Below are positions 2,991 to 43,460 of a DNA stretch of 43,479 nucleotides, one piece after another. This DNA comes from a virus, in IMG/VR virus record IMGVR_UViG_3300030060_000826, positions 1 through 43,479 of that record; one strand, 5' to 3'. The first letter of the stretch is position 1, and each line of letters starts with the position of its first letter. The notes beneath the pieces are model-generated. The model saw only the letters and a list, made by a program, of their open reading frames with translations. It had not been told where the DNA came from and searched no databases. The position numbers were made by a program, and so were the translations under genes.

Positions 2991-4237
2991 TGGGTATAAA
3001 CTTTGGAGCAGCTCTTAAGGGTTTTGCAGACCACATAAGAGAGGAAACAAAAGAAGATAAAAAAATAAATCGTGTTCTTGTAAGTAATACCTTAGACAAG
3101 TATACTACTAACTATTATGATAAGAAAAAAACACACGACAAAGAAAATAAAATTATAGAAACAACAGCTAACTATGTGCTACAACATATAAAAGACCCTG
3201 TATTAGCTGTACAAATAGCAAACATGGGTCCAGCAGGATTGACAGAGTTTAAGAAAAACTTAGAGATAGCTACTGAAACAGGTGTTGATATTAATGATAT
3301 GTATTCTAGTTTATATGAACCATCTGAAGAATTAAAGTCTTTAAAAAGTGTAAATGAAATTATCAAAGCAGTAAAACCTTTTCAAGCACCTGCTGTTCCT
3401 ACAATAGGTGGTAGGCAAACTTTATTTACTGCAAATCCAAACGATACAATTAAAACTGCATTAAAAGATGTAGTTGGATTAGATGATGCAAATAAAATTC
3501 CTTTAGCACTAGGTCAAGCAAAAGTTAAAAAAATACCTGAAATAAAAGGTACTATTAATCAGGCTCTGCTTGGTGTAAATACAAGAATAAGTAACTTTTT
3601 AGAGCAAAATGGTGGTGATGCTAGTATATTAACAGGAGAAAAGAAAAAAGAATATGACGCTATGGTTAAACAAAAGGATACTATTACATCAACATATAGA
3701 AATTTAGAAAAAATAAAATCTGAATTTGATGCTCCAAAAAGTCAATATTCTAAAGTACCAGCAATAAAAATATATCAGAGTAATGTCGCTGCTTCTATTG
3801 CTAACTCAAAGCTGTTTAAAATTTCTTTGGGAGAAGTTATAGATAATATTAAAAATGATACTAGAAATAAGTATATAGTTGGTGCTCATAGTGCCATACA
3901 AGCTACACAAAAAACTTATAGTGATGCAGAAATGGGTAAAGTATTAGATACACAATTTATGATATTACAGTCACAAGTTAAAGAACACATAATTAAAGCG
4001 AGGGCTGCTCAAAATGTACCAACGGGCACAACCATTCCTAACCACTATAAAATAACTAAGGTAACTGAGGATGAGTTAAACAAAGGTGTCTACTTAGATA
4101 GTGCGACTCAAAAAAAATTACCTTTAAAACCCGGAACTGTAGTGCAAGTTGGAAATAAATATGTTCTTTATACAGGTCAGGGTGTTGGCTATCTTACAGG
4201 AAATCCTAATCAACCGAGAATAGAAGAAACACAATAG
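2990..4237 (+). CDS. Hypothetical virion-cluster protein
   Basis: 415 residues, Lys- and Asn-rich, mostly predicted helical, with no membrane segment and no recognised catalytic motif. The start ATG overlaps the preceding stop. The C-terminal part (GTTIPNHYKI to YVLYTGQGVGYLTG) looks like a small beta domain. Location between the PIPGQ protein and the 1373-residue protein suggests a minor virion or injected protein. Not otherwise recognised. Confidence 0.6.
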   Translation: MGINFGAALKGFADHIREETKEDKKINRVLVSNTLDKYTTNYYDKKKTHDKENKIIETTANYVLQHIKDPVLAVQIANMGPAGLTEFKKNLEIATETGVDINDMYSSLYEPSEELKSLKSVNEIIKAVKPFQAPAVPTIGGRQTLFTANPNDTIKTALKDVVGLDDANKIPLALGQAKVKKIPEIKGTINQALLGVNTRISNFLEQNGGDASILTGEKKKEYDAMVKQKDTITSTYRNLEKIKSEFDAPKSQYSKVPAIKIYQSNVAASIANSKLFKISLGEVIDNIKNDTRNKYIVGAHSAIQATQKTYSDAEMGKVLDTQFMILQSQVKEHIIKARAAQNVPTGTTIPNHYKITKVTEDELNKGVYLDSATQKKLPLKPGTVVQVGNKYVLYTGQGVGYLTGNPNQPRIEETQ

Positions 4238-12836: not shown

Positions 12837-13687
12837 GCTTTTCTCCTTTCTAATTTTACATACTGAACCATTTTAGGTTCTTTAGCTTGAGACATCTGCG
12901 ATGGTAACTCTTCGAGAGTTTCCCAACAGTCTTGTCTATATGAACAAAATGTACAGTTCTTACTTAAAACCATGTTACCTGTAGGTTTACCTCTAAAAGT
13001 TTCAGGCTCAGGTTCAAAGCATCGTACTAACTTGTCTGACTCTGCTGACTTTATATTCTTTTTGATTTTATCAATCTCTTTGTCCATCTCTATGTGAGCA
13101 GGCACATACTTAAATTGACCATTCGCTTTGTTGACAACCCACCAACCACCTGCCTTCTTATTAGAGGCTTTTGCGTAACCTGCAAGTTGTCCTACATAAC
13201 CAAAGCTATCTCCTGAATGTAAAGTCTCATAAGACTCAAACTTATATTTGTATGACCAATCAGATGCTGACTTGATATCATCAACTGCATCATTCATAAC
13301 TAAATCATACGTACCTGATATAGTATTATATTTATCAATGTCAAGAGATACAGTATCACTATCTTCAAAATCTACTTTAGCTGACCTAAGAATAGCTTTG
13401 AACACAGCCTCAACTATATCTCCTATCATCATATTCATAACAAACGTAGTAGGTCTAGGTATTGCTGTCTCAGGTTTATTTTTCTCATACCATAGCTGAC
13501 AAGAAGGTCTACCAATATTAGACATGCGAAACTTAAAATCCGTATCCCTTTTAGAGTTGAACTGACGATTCAGTGCATCCTTTATATCAGATGCTACCTG
13601 CTCAATAGTCTCAGAACTCATAGCAGTCTCACCCTTACTTGCGTTTTGTAAGTATTGATGAATCATCATTTCAGCAGGGTGGTTCAT
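12833..13687 (-). CDS. Cas4/RecB-like PD-(D/E)XK exonuclease
   Basis: 284 residues. Nuclease core: SGTYDLVMNDAVDDIKSASD gives D...D-I-K, with QLAGYAKAS following (motif IV-like Q-x-x-x-Y). A cysteine near residue 58 (GRPSCQLWYEK) and CTFCSYRQDC near the C terminus reproduce the C...C-x2-C-x5-C arrangement of Fe-S cluster nucleases such as Cas4 and AddB. In podovirus genomes this position holds the exonuclease, equivalent to T7 gp6. Start overlaps the preceding gene as TAATG. Confidence 0.8.
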   Translation of the reverse strand: MNHPAEMMIHQYLQNASKGETAMSSETIEQVASDIKDALNRQFNSKRDTDFKFRMSNIGRPSCQLWYEKNKPETAIPRPTTFVMNMMIGDIVEAVFKAILRSAKVDFEDSDTVSLDIDKYNTISGTYDLVMNDAVDDIKSASDWSYKYKFESYETLHSGDSFGYVGQLAGYAKASNKKAGGWWVVNKANGQFKYVPAHIEMDKEIDKIKKNIKSAESDKLVRCFEPEPETFRGKPTGNMVLSKNCTFCSYRQDCWETLEELPSQMSQAKEPKMVQYVKLERRKA

Positions 13688-14592
13688 TAAGCTACCTCAT
13701 CATCAATATCAATGAACTCATCTACAGTCTGCATATCATCCTTACTGATATCATCCTTCGCTTTCATATCCCACTCATTGATTATATATGAGTTGTAATT
13801 CTCAATCCAAGAAATAAAATTAGAAAACATCTCTTGGTCTTTGTCATCGAGAGTAACAGCATTAATCAAATCGAGACTAGCTGTAGGTAGATAAAAGGAA
13901 TTACCATTTGGTAGCTTTCTTTCTTCAGTATTCAAAGCTATCGTATGCTGAACAGGTAACTTCTTCATCTGTGCTAACTTAGCAAAAGGAATACCCAAAG
14001 TCTTGAAGGCATCTCTATTATCTATCTCCCATATAAAAGGATGAGCACTTGTATCTAAAGAGTTACCCTTCTCATCTGTAGGTTTATCTAACTCAATAGT
14101 ACCAAAGATAACACGAACACGTTTGATTTGCTTTATCAAGTCTTGTGTGGCTACAGGTAAAGCCTGAAAGTCTTTTATCCAACCTGAAGGTTTACCACAG
14201 TTGAAACCACCTTGATTATCTTTCAAATCAATATTAAGATTATCAGCCATAATAGTCTTATGATAAATACCCATAGGGTCTCCTGCCTTTGCAGACATAT
14301 TCTTCACAAATCTTTTGTACATAAATCTCTGTACAAAGGGTCTTATTTTAGCTGACTTAGAGTAAAAGATATTCTCATCAGGAACATCTAACTTATACGT
14401 TCCACCTTCTACTACTTCAACATTAACATTCTTACCTTTGACTTCTGCCTCGCCCATGATAGGTGAATGATTAATCTTTAGTCTAGGAAGATTGTTTGTC
14501 TTTCCATCACTGCTAGTGCCTTCATTAGCAATACCCATTGCCTTAGCCATAGCATTATAATTGTTAGTATCTATTGTAACTAAATTACTCAT
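13687..14592 (-). CDS. Probable ssDNA-binding replication protein
   Basis: 301 residues, preceded by AGGAG. No catalytic motif. The body is beta-rich with aromatic residues and the C terminus is strongly acidic (DEFIDIDDEVA), the hallmark of phage ssDNA-binding proteins such as T7 gp2.5, whose tail contacts polymerase and helicase. The gene sits between polymerase and exonuclease, as gp2.5 lies among replication genes in T7. The role is inferred from tail and context, not from recognised sequence identity. Confidence 0.55.
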   Translation of the reverse strand: MSNLVTIDTNNYNAMAKAMGIANEGTSSDGKTNNLPRLKINHSPIMGEAEVKGKNVNVEVVEGGTYKLDVPDENIFYSKSAKIRPFVQRFMYKRFVKNMSAKAGDPMGIYHKTIMADNLNIDLKDNQGGFNCGKPSGWIKDFQALPVATQDLIKQIKRVRVIFGTIELDKPTDEKGNSLDTSAHPFIWEIDNRDAFKTLGIPFAKLAQMKKLPVQHTIALNTEERKLPNGNSFYLPTASLDLINAVTLDDKDQEMFSNFISWIENYNSYIINEWDMKAKDDISKDDMQTVDEFIDIDDEVA

Positions 14593-17865: not shown

Positions 17866-18639
17866 TTACTCCTTTGGGGTTAATAATTCTAATTGTTTAT
17901 AGTCTTCTTCTTTCCTGTATTTTAAATCGTCTTGTACTCGTAGTACCTTAACGTCATTCACATGACCTCGTAATTCTTTCGCAAAAGCTAATGTCTTTGG
18001 CAAGGCATCAGGGTCTAAAGCTATTATAGCAGTCGAGAACTGTGAGAGATATTTCTTATGTGCCTCAGCTAATGATGTACCCAACACTGCTACCCCAACA
18101 TATACCTCATTACCTACTGCTACTGCACTCACACAGTCCTCAACAACTACTGCCACCCTACCACATCCATGAGTAAAAGGCAAGTTATTTCTTCCATACC
18201 TTTTCCATTTGGGTAAACGAGACCCTAGTGCCCTTCCTGTGGCATCAACCATTTTATTATCGTGGAGAATAGGAAAGACAACTCTGTCATCTTTCACATC
18301 ATAAAACAGTTCTATCTTGGACATATCTATACTCCAAGACGCACACCAAGAAGTGACACTAGGTCTATCCCCATGTGGTAATACATACTCAGGCAATGTA
18401 AAATCATTTACATCATCATCAAGTACACTTGGGTCTATGGCATCCCTTATATCTTCTACAGACAGGTGGATACGTGTTGAACCTGATAACTTACAGCTAG
18501 ACTTGTAACAATTCCACAAGATTCTACCCATATTATTTGTTACTGTAAAAGTTTTGTATCCATTACAACTAGGACAAGATAATCTTTTAGTCTCTCCTAT
18601 ACCTAACTGTAAATCATTTATATAATTATATATATTCAT
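17866..18639 (-). CDS. Primase with zinc-binding and TOPRIM domains
   Basis: 257 residues. N-terminal zinc ribbon with C22-x2-C25 and C44-x4-C49. A TOPRIM-like domain follows: VAVVVEDCVSAVAVG (catalytic Glu) and AIIALDPDALPKTL (D-x-D). This corresponds to the primase half of T7 gp4. It would lay down RNA primers for lagging-strand synthesis. Start overlaps the recombinase stop as ATGA; six bases separate it from the helicase gene. Confidence 0.88.
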   Translation of the reverse strand: MNIYNYINDLQLGIGETKRLSCPSCNGYKTFTVTNNMGRILWNCYKSSCKLSGSTRIHLSVEDIRDAIDPSVLDDDVNDFTLPEYVLPHGDRPSVTSWCASWSIDMSKIELFYDVKDDRVVFPILHDNKMVDATGRALGSRLPKWKRYGRNNLPFTHGCGRVAVVVEDCVSAVAVGNEVYVGVAVLGTSLAEAHKKYLSQFSTAIIALDPDALPKTLAFAKELRGHVNDVKVLRVQDDLKYRKEEDYKQLELLTPKE

Positions 18640-26826: not shown

Positions 26827-26859
26827 AGTTTTTCTCCACGTAAAGTTAAAGTTAAGGGC

Positions 26860-26889
26860 ATTATACCCTCAAACAATACGAATTGTAAA
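26860..26889 (-). promoter_or_regulatory. Leftward sigma70-like promoter
   Basis: Read on the minus strand: TTTACA (26884-26889), 18-nt spacer, TATAAT (26860-26865), about 34 bases before the first ATG of the early operon. The -10 is exact and the -35 matches 5 of 6. The box sits in the string GAGGGTATAATGC, repeated on the plus strand at 26425-26437. It probably drives the leftward operon using the host polymerase. Confidence 0.7.
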
Positions 26890-26989
26890 GAATAAAATTC
26901 AATTACATGAGACATATATCTTGATGCCATAAGGTATTCTCAAAAAATAATAATCCAAGTATTTTCTTTTAATTGAATAGCTTACTTTT

Positions 26990-27640
26990 CATGTAATCTA
27001 GTTATGTAGATTTTTCCTCGCTTTCACTTTGATACCCACTCGATTGAGTTATTAAGGGTAGGCAGACTAGACAACACACAAAACTAGTCTCTTTTACTTT
27101 CTCGCACTCTTACCATTGACCACCCTAGGATTTAGTTAGTTGCACTTTTTCTAGACTACAGTTAGGTTTTATTTTTTATCGTAACAACCTTTTAGGAATT
27201 AAGTTACACCTAGCTTGCATTTTCAACAAGTTACACTTGGTCGCTTGTATCGTCTAGAATGTTACCACTAATTTGGCACACCTAGTTAGCCCACGTCTTG
27301 CCCACGTATGGGTAAGAATTCGCATCTATCGTTTAGAGGATTTACTCTTGATAGGTTCGATTTAAAGTTCGCACTTGCACCATTTTTAAGAGTTGTCGTT
27401 TCTCTTTTCTTATCTTGTATTCACCTTAACATTTTCTTTTCAAACTAGTCAAGAAGTTTCTTTAAAATGTTTTAAGAAATTTGTTACTGTAACGTTTATC
27501 TTAAAACTTAAAAGTTTTTTTGTTTCATTAGCAATTTACAAGACTTAGTTTCTTATGCTTGTAAAAAGAAAGTTCGTATCTAAAAACTTTTTCTTACTTC
27601 TTATTCAGCTTGGCAAGTATGCCTTGTTGAATGATTGTAT
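26990..27640. other. Non-coding, hairpin-rich region
   Basis: No credible gene on either strand. Base composition is richer in C and G than the flanking AT tract. Visible structure includes AGACTAG/CTAGTCT (27064-27090, 13-nt loop), ATTCAGC/GTTGAAT around GGCA-AGTA-TGCC (27603-27632), a near-perfect TTTCTTTAAAA/TTTTAAGAAA hairpin (27457-27479), and GCCCACGT twice 11 bp apart (27289-27307). A degenerate word like GTTACACTT recurs at 27139, 27203, 27230 and 27367. It could be a structured RNA, a replication origin or an operator cluster. Confidence 0.5.
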
Positions 27641-27674
27641 TATGCACACACTTTGAAACAAAAGTAAACCCCCC

Positions 27675-28020
27675 AAACTAAAAAAAGTTAATTATTTTGT
27701 AATTATTTTGTTAAGTGATTGTTTTTATTGAATATTTTTAACTAAAATAATTGATATTTATTTTAAATGGGTATGTAATTTTGAATGATACTATATAATA
27801 CAAAAAAAAAGTTTATGCATCTTGCCTTTAAAATCGAGGGTATATCTTGTAAATTGTGAGTTTTATTTGATACATAAAAAGGTAACTTATAGATAATAAG
27901 TTTATAATGTTACATAAAATCGTTATATATCAATGACTTAGCATTATAAATAGTATAAAAATAGTGATAATAGATAAAATTTACATAAAAAAAGTATGAT
28001 AGTGAGTGAAAAAATGAAAA
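27675..28020. other. AT-rich tract, possible DNA-unwinding region
   Basis: About 350 bases of almost pure A/T with A and T runs, no gene on either strand. It is flanked by a C6 run (27669-27674) on the left and a G-rich island on the right. Such tracts next to repeats are typical of replication origins, where the duplex melts first. Several TATAAT-like words occur but none has a good -35. Confidence 0.45.
27689..27710. repeat. Tandem 11-bp direct repeat
   Basis: TAATTATTTTG occurs twice without a spacer (27689-27699 and 27700-27710) at the left end of the AT-rich tract. The period is one helical turn, so both copies face the same side of the DNA. AT-rich repeats like this resemble the unwinding repeats of origins. 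Confidence 0.6.
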
Positions 28021-28026
28021 AATGAA

Positions 28027-28054
28027 GGTAGGGTAGGCGTGTGGCAGTGGGGGG
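28027..28054 (+). other. G-rich island, possible quadruplex
   Basis: Plus strand holds G-runs at 28027-28, 28031-33, 28036-37, 28043-44 and 28049-54 (GGTAGGGTAGGCGTGTGG then GTGGGGGG) within a very AT-rich stretch. Four or more runs of at least two Gs could form a two-layer G-quadruplex. The strand asymmetry is striking. No coding function. Confidence 0.5.
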
Positions 28055-28202
28055 TACTACGTATATGTTCTTGGATTACTACACAGATAGGTATTTTAGG
28101 TGTTAACCACTAGTTTAACTGATAGAATACGTACCATCTAGTAATGTGTTGCATAAATATCACAACATACACACAAAATGCATACATTTAAAATAATTGC
28201 AC

Positions 28203-28231
28203 TTGACAAAAACACGGAAATCGAATATAAT
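28203..28231 (+). promoter_or_regulatory. Exact-consensus rightward sigma70 promoter
   Basis: TTGACA (28203-28208), 17-nt spacer, TATAAT (28226-28231): all twelve positions and the spacing match the bacterial consensus. Transcription would begin near 28238 and read through the 12-bp repeats into the gene at 28406. It probably launches rightward transcription and should be very strong unless repressed. Confidence 0.85.
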
Positions 28232-28243
28232 TATGTATAACTA

Positions 28244-28359
28244 ACATATAAATGTACATATAAATGATAATTACATTTAAATATAATAACATATACATGA
28301 ACATATAAATGATTCCTATAATTTCTTGTTAAACTCACTTTAAATGTACATATAAATGA
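28244..28359 (+). repeat. Three tandem pairs of a 12-bp repeat
   Basis: Unit ACATATAAATGA. Pairs of adjacent units lie at 28244-28267, 28289-28312 and 28336-28359; pair starts are 45 and 47 bp apart. Units 28256-28267, 28301-28312 and 28348-28359 are identical; the first unit of each pair varies. A weaker copy is at 28273-28284. The array starts just after the consensus promoter and ends 46 bases before the next ATG. It is probably a protein-binding array (operator or origin iterons). Confidence 0.8.
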
Positions 28360-28405
28360 CCCTATAAGAGTATATCTACGTACTCAATAAAATTTATACT
28401 TGACA

Positions 28406-28618
28406 ATGAAGCGAAAATCAGTAAAACTATACGTACCTGAGAATCTATTAGAAGCATTTTATGATGCCATACGTAATAATAAGCTAAAGGATTTACATAT
28501 TCCCCACAGTTCTGTGTTCTATGTTCGTGCTGCGATAGAATCTGACACAGGAATACGCTATTCATTGAAACATGTAGAAACAGCGATGAAAGCAGAAGGG
28601 ATGTTAAACGATGTTTGA
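28406..28618 (+). CDS. Ribbon-helix-helix-like small protein
   Basis: 70 residues. Begins MKRKSVKLYVPENLLEAFYD, a beta strand followed by an amphipathic helix as in Arc/MetJ-type DNA-binding proteins. The second half (VFYVRAAIESDTGIRYSLKH then ETAMKAEGML) is a conserved helical tail seen in small marine phage proteins. Start ATG chosen over a TTG six bases upstream; Shine-Dalgarno is poor. As the first gene behind the repeat array it is a candidate autoregulator. DNA binding is inferred, not shown. Confidence 0.6.
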   Translation: MKRKSVKLYVPENLLEAFYDAIRNNKLKDLHIPHSSVFYVRAAIESDTGIRYSLKHVETAMKAEGMLNDV

Positions 28619-43239: not shown

Positions 43240-43460
43240 AACAGTTGACAAACAGTTATTTATACATATAACTAGTATCAACTAAAAATGTGACCTCTCC
43301 ACGTGGACAACTCACATAATACTACACTTGGAAGCCTACCTGATGGTAAGAGCCTACGTTTAACTAGCTATTAAATGTACAACCTCAACTACTATTAGCC
43401 GATGACGAGTAAATATAGCACATTCGTGCATTTGTTTTATTTTCAAAAATGGAGATGAAA
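43240..43460 (+). other. Long leader before the capsid gene
   Basis: A 221-base gap with no gene, unusually long for this compact genome. It holds a promoter (43245-43272), the 10-bp palindrome TCCACGTGGA (43298-43307) and a weak hairpin GCAC-ATTC-GTGC followed by a T-rich tail (43418-43440). A clear GGAG lies before the ATG. It likely controls high-level capsid synthesis. Confidence 0.6.
43245..43272 (+). promoter_or_regulatory. Sigma70-like promoter for capsid gene
   Basis: TTGACA (43245-43250), 16-nt spacer, TATAAC (43267-43272), just after the scaffold stop. The -35 is exact and the -10 matches 5 of 6. It would add extra transcription of the major capsid gene. Confidence 0.65.

Follow-up and report, generated by a model that had tools for sequence, protein, structure and literature searches.

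The question raised by this locus is whether an array of short paired repeats in a marine phage serves as a switch read by the product of the small gene beside it, by some other repressor, or as a site from which replication is started or controlled. The window, i.e., the whole 43,479-nucleotide stretch of DNA analysed, is an entire IMG/VR virus record (class, linear) and represents part of the genome of an HMO-2011-type marine podovirus, a member of a very abundant group of marine phages. Its polymerase carries a DnaJ-like insertion and shares 63% identity with the polymerase of Puniceispirillum phage HMO-2011. The array lies in an intergenic region with leftward early and replication genes on one side and the rightward structural operon on the other; positions 26827-28361 form an AT-rich stretch of ~1.5 kb with no open reading frame of at least 60 aa on either strand. 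Within 28244-28359 there were seven near-dyad 12-mers, three adjacent pairs and one single unit, preceded by one predicted promoter (P1) and followed by a second (P2):

28203-28231, plus strand: promoter P1, TTGACA-N17-TATAAT, an exact sigma-70 consensus from which the array would be transcribed
28244-28255, plus strand: repeat unit 1 (pair 1), ACATATAAATGT, read directly
28256-28267, plus strand: repeat unit 2 (pair 1), ACATATAAATGA, read directly
28273-28284, plus strand: unpaired seventh unit, ACATTTAAATAT, position-weight matrix score 11.0 (13.5 with the window background)
28289-28300, plus strand: repeat unit 3 (pair 2), ACATATACATGA, read directly
28301-28312, plus strand: repeat unit 4 (pair 2), ACATATAAATGA, read directly
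28336-28347, plus strand: repeat unit 5 (pair 3), CACTTTAAATGT, diverged, read directly, with a weak minus-strand matrix match
28348-28359, plus strand: repeat unit 6 (pair 3), ACATATAAATGA, read directly
28400-28429, plus strand: promoter P2, TTGACA-N16-TAAAACTA, overlapping the start codon of the next gene and kept in 118 of 118 distinct relatives
28400-28618, plus strand: gene for a small conserved protein of 70 aa at the head of the structural operon (ATG at 28406; alternative in-frame start, TTG at 28400)

Direct reading of the units confirmed the three adjacent pairs with starts 45 and 47 bp apart that an earlier note on this DNA had described, together with its exact-consensus promoter at 28203-28231, for which the chance expectation in the window was 0.12. 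The repeats themselves are thus real, but the exact ACATATAAATGA that the note gave for them occurred in only three of the six paired units, and both the unpaired seventh unit and P2 had escaped notice. Each 12-mer was an imperfect dyad in itself, and the array region was 80% A+T. The best repeated 12-mer statistic in 28232-28399 was 60; in 2000 Markov shuffles it averaged 26 and never exceeded 52. The repeat score of this region was the highest among all 168-nt stretches of the record. A position-weight matrix (PWM) built from 53 relatives, with the window left out, matched all but one of the seven units on the forward strand, and no second repeat cluster turned up in the window.

The order P1-array-P2 was common to the whole group of relatives. 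A P1 equivalent (TTGACA-N17-TATAAT or TATAAC) was present in 64 of the 70 distinct loci of the first set of relatives, and in most loci the first unit lay 0-17 nt after the -10 box of P1, with sites overlapping or abutting the transcription start. Units were spaced 12-14 bp apart within a pair, the next pair followed ~45-48 bp further on, and the last unit usually ended 35-45 nt before P2. Like the units of the window, those of the relatives were directional and near-dyad, and they formed tandem repeats beside AT-rich DNA of the kind expected at an iteron origin. The unit sequence differed by lineage (ACACTTAAATG, TAGTAAAACTA, TAATATATTA and others); the 70-aa protein, by contrast, was nearly constant. 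Units were TAGTWAAACTA-like in L162, L165-L167, L169 and L170 and TAATATATTA- or TAACATAACAT-like in L245-L247 and L254, with steps of 12-13 bp retained in both sets; geometry was preserved across lineages whose unit sequence had been exchanged. CRP-6 was considered as the donor of the CRP-13 array and rejected, having no such array itself.

Other conserved elements were seen in and around the same region. A block upstream of P1 (28148-28166, TGTTGCATAAATATCACA) was conserved in relatives, and a reverse-complement-like form of it, GTGACATTTTTGCAAC, occurred in ~9 copies in the CRP-6 intergenic region. Nearly all relatives read also shared a ~50-bp block (28079-28130, CACAGAT-AGG...GTGTTAACCAC...AACTG in the window), a candidate DnaA-box-like or att element. 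A palindrome, TCCCA-N1-4-TGGGA (TGTCCCAACTTGGGACA type), was dispersed 11 and 13 times through the early region of G004 and G005 (L186-L191), often at gene starts, where it encoded MSQVGT; the window lacked it, as did the other relatives checked save for one copy in HMO-2011.

The predicted promoter P2 was the most constant element of the locus. The 70-aa gene has its start codon at or next to the -35 box of P2, and its codons 6-8 (V-K-L in the window) form the -10 box. In all 118 distinct loci that included the gene start P2 read TTGACW-N16-TAMAACTA, the -10 box encoding Val-Lys/Gln-Leu, and the Leu codon was CTA in 116 of 116 cases versus 15% of the other Leu codons in the same genes. P2 thus combines hexamers within the 15-19 bp separation of a housekeeping sigma promoter with constraint at the nucleotide level, and in CRP-13 it was kept despite an in-frame stop between its -35 and -10 boxes. 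In two relatives (L240 at 3560-3620 and L260 at 380-440) neither ATG nor GTG occurred over the first 16 codons of the 70-aa gene, which makes the TTG of the -35 box their probable start codon. The window contained only two P2-type sites, where 0.07 were expected, the second being:

43245-43274, plus strand: predicted P2-type promoter upstream of the capsid region

Most of the relatives checked also had a P2-type promoter upstream of the capsid region. The -10 box of P2 (TAMAAC) fits the TANAWC portion of the alphaproteobacterial RpoD promoter consensus (TTGaCgS / GCtANAWC; PMC8144410), and its -35 box, TTGACA, is likewise similar; P2 differs in overlapping a start codon and in carrying a conserved TA after the -10 box. 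The papers searched on HMO-2011-type phages describe neither promoters nor an origin like those seen here.

Gene identity was compared with array similarity across 18 genomes, relatedness of the polymerase and helicase having been removed. Two genes of the replication module stood out:

17866-18639, minus strand: phage DNA primase, co-diverging with the array
13687-14592, minus strand: 301-aa replication-module protein, SSB-like, showing the best co-divergence with the array

Labels were permuted across genomes with no explicit tree, independent class changes were few, and the analyses were chosen after the first genomes had been seen. Within these limits, array similarity was correlated with the SSB-like gene at partial r = 0.47 and with the primase at partial r = 0.37 (p ~0.0005 for each); no correlation was seen for the 70-aa gene (r = 0.08, p = 0.26). 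A control region, the 160 nt upstream of P1, showed no correlation with either the SSB-like gene or the primase, and the result was unchanged when all CRP phages were omitted. A class-label test on 22 genes, read within the same limits, again placed the SSB-like gene (p = 0.0005) and primase (p = 0.0005) first, along with a 113-aa early gene (p = 0.0015); structural genes were not outstanding, and the 70-aa gene gave p = 0.58. The idea that all variant genomes share one SSB-like allele was rejected, there being one per class (those of G001 and G004 are 40% identical). The 301-aa protein appears SSB-like from its gene position and acidic C-terminus; it matched no family, and no recognised sequence-specific duplex-DNA-binding domain was found in it or in the primase.

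Since the array sequence follows the replication genes and does not follow the small gene, the array probably serves to start or control replication and is less likely to be the small gene's repressor switch. Our leading explanation, which we hold tentatively, is that the array is a transcription-linked iteron-like origin, or part of one, read by a protein of the replication module. The earlier note had offered origin iterons as an alternative; the co-divergence with the primase and SSB-like genes, itself correlative, favours that alternative but leaves it unproven. We infer that host RNA polymerase would start at P1 and transcribe through the AT-rich array, where a dimer of a phage protein encoded in the early replication module, with the 301-aa SSB-like protein or the primase as candidates and possibly with partners, would recognise the directional near-dyad 12-mers, binding adjacent copies cooperatively. 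Replication proteins would then load at the array, and transcription of the structural operon would continue from P2, which lies within the start of the 70-aa gene. Binding of the units would probably also limit or shut P1, since the first unit lies at the P1 start, so that the array may perhaps double as an operator for that promoter. The cumulative GC-skew minimum fell within ~1.1 kb of P2 in 10 of 10 relatives, consistent with an origin, although divergent transcription and gene direction would give the same skew.

Two well-studied phages offer comparisons for such an origin. In lambda, a dimeric O protein binds 19-bp iterons and transcription from pR activates the origin (PMC3985674). The present array resembles that origin in having tandem directional repeats in AT-rich DNA, predicted to be transcribed from a host-sigma promoter, and in co-varying with replication genes; it differs in that it consists of paired 12-mers ~47 bp apart instead of four 19-bp iterons, lies between genes and not within an initiator gene, and is accompanied by no O homologue that we could find. 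The T7 primary origin likewise places a promoter before an A/T-rich region, and T7 shares the replication gene set (polymerase A, helicase, primase, endonuclease I), but its origin uses promoters of the phage RNA polymerase where those here are of host type. T7 is not known to have such repeats.

The position of the first unit suits a plain repressor operator, the chief competing explanation, equally well. It is possible, though on balance unlikely, that the array is purely a tandem operator at which a putative phage repressor, bound cooperatively over the P1 start, would repress the rightward operon with no role in an origin; operators and repressor would in that case have diversified together, as in phage immunity groups. 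Besides the placement of the first unit, such an operator would account for near-dyad paired units whose geometry is kept while their sequence swaps, and some members of the group carry integrases, CRP-3 being known to integrate (PMC6918029). However, we found no repressor-like gene that tracks the array, no repressor family was matched by early genes of the window or of some relatives, and the genes that do track the array are replication genes. The first leftward gene was rejected as the reader because L245 and L246 share an array and yet their first leftward genes are unrelated. This gene (seen in L013, L063, L213, L245 and L246) was hypervariable, ~190-320 aa long and of several apparently unrelated families between close relatives; in the clade of the window it was missing, with a long gap in its place. 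A switch of rightward transcription, which the earlier note had proposed, may still operate at P1 with a different reader protein, the ribbon-helix-helix (RHH) reader it had named being unsupported.

That named reader was the 70-aa protein, which would bind the array as an RHH, or small HTH, repressor of its own promoter P1; we consider this improbable. The gene lies directly downstream of P1 and the array and encodes a small, basic, conserved protein, with homologues at >100 loci in addition to gp71 of HMO-2011, which likewise heads the structural operon. As the note had predicted, paired repeats were present upstream of nearly all of these homologues, and the adjacent dyad units, about one helical turn apart and directly at a promoter, recall MetJ/Arc-type tandem operators. 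The resemblance ends at the protein, for which RHH evidence was lacking and which did not track the operator sequence. None of 29 homologues matched an RHH family at E <= 5, although the families may be too diverged for this, and scans of Pfam, PHROGs and NCBIfam with a PDB sequence search gave nothing usable for an RHH or HTH assignment; the sole DNA-binding-like match was a weak one to HTH_33 (E ~0.02). Two AF2 models (pLDDT 71-73), single-chain and of low confidence, contained three helices (residues 14-23, 36-48 and 54-63) and no strand, residues 1-8 having pLDDT <50, so that the Arc/MetJ-like strand-helix beginning read by the note went unsupported, with the caveat that a single-chain model cannot exclude an RHH dimer. 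Neither Foldseek nor VIA-align found a fold match to these models. The lack of a family match and the low-confidence three-helix models leave an RHH fold neither shown nor excluded.

The comparison of arrays with proteins was more decisive. Between the L162-type loci and L022, a relative of the canonical kind, the 70-aa proteins share 84-86% identity and do not differ at residues 4-13, yet the array has been exchanged (top PWM score ~-3 in L162-type arrays). Conversely, relatives whose 70-aa proteins are just 52-62% identical to that of the window keep the canonical unit, among them HMO-2011 and CRP-1 (52-56% identity, PWM 15-18.5). The operator sequence therefore did not follow the supposed strand residues of the protein, and because the array swaps beside a near-unchanged protein and persists beside diverged ones, the 70-aa protein does not set the repeat sequence. 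Residue 40 was rejected as a specificity switch, as L042/L056 and L066/L177 share arrays with V or A at that position. With array classes changing without matching change in the protein, autoregulation by an RHH protein through the repeats lost its footing.

Two further readings are far less probable. Integrase arm sites typically consist of paired direct repeats, and most relatives carry an integrase, but it is very improbable that the units are arm-type sites (attP) of the phage tyrosine integrase: the co-divergence of the integrase with the array was weak (r = 0.20-0.32, p ~0.02-0.03), the 311-aa integrase has its Phage_integrase domain at 118-284, leaving ~117 N-terminal residues that would accommodate a core-binding domain and hardly an arm-binding one, and CRP-13 has a paired array of the same geometry with no integrase annotated in its early region, so that by this annotation the array is not confined to integrase-bearing phages. 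That the near-dyad units, transcribed from P1, act as RNA hairpins in its leader is barely credible, because the two arms of the commonest unit, ACACTTAAATGT, retain a C-A mismatch (C in 76% and A in 84% of 214 sites) that would not be expected of an RNA stem.

With a transcription-linked iteron-like origin as the preferred reading, the P1-array-P2 cassette becomes a source of concrete, testable candidates. The fuller proposal, in which an iteron sequence swapped as a unit between lineages would be read by the SSB-like protein or primase and coupled to a two-promoter cassette in which a conserved gene carries the late promoter across its start codon and first codons, is one to which we give only a modest chance. 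The overprinting by P2 accounts for the lack of synonymous variation at some opening codons of the conserved 70-aa protein, and the swapped arrays with their matching replication proteins constitute a natural series for the mapping of specificity.
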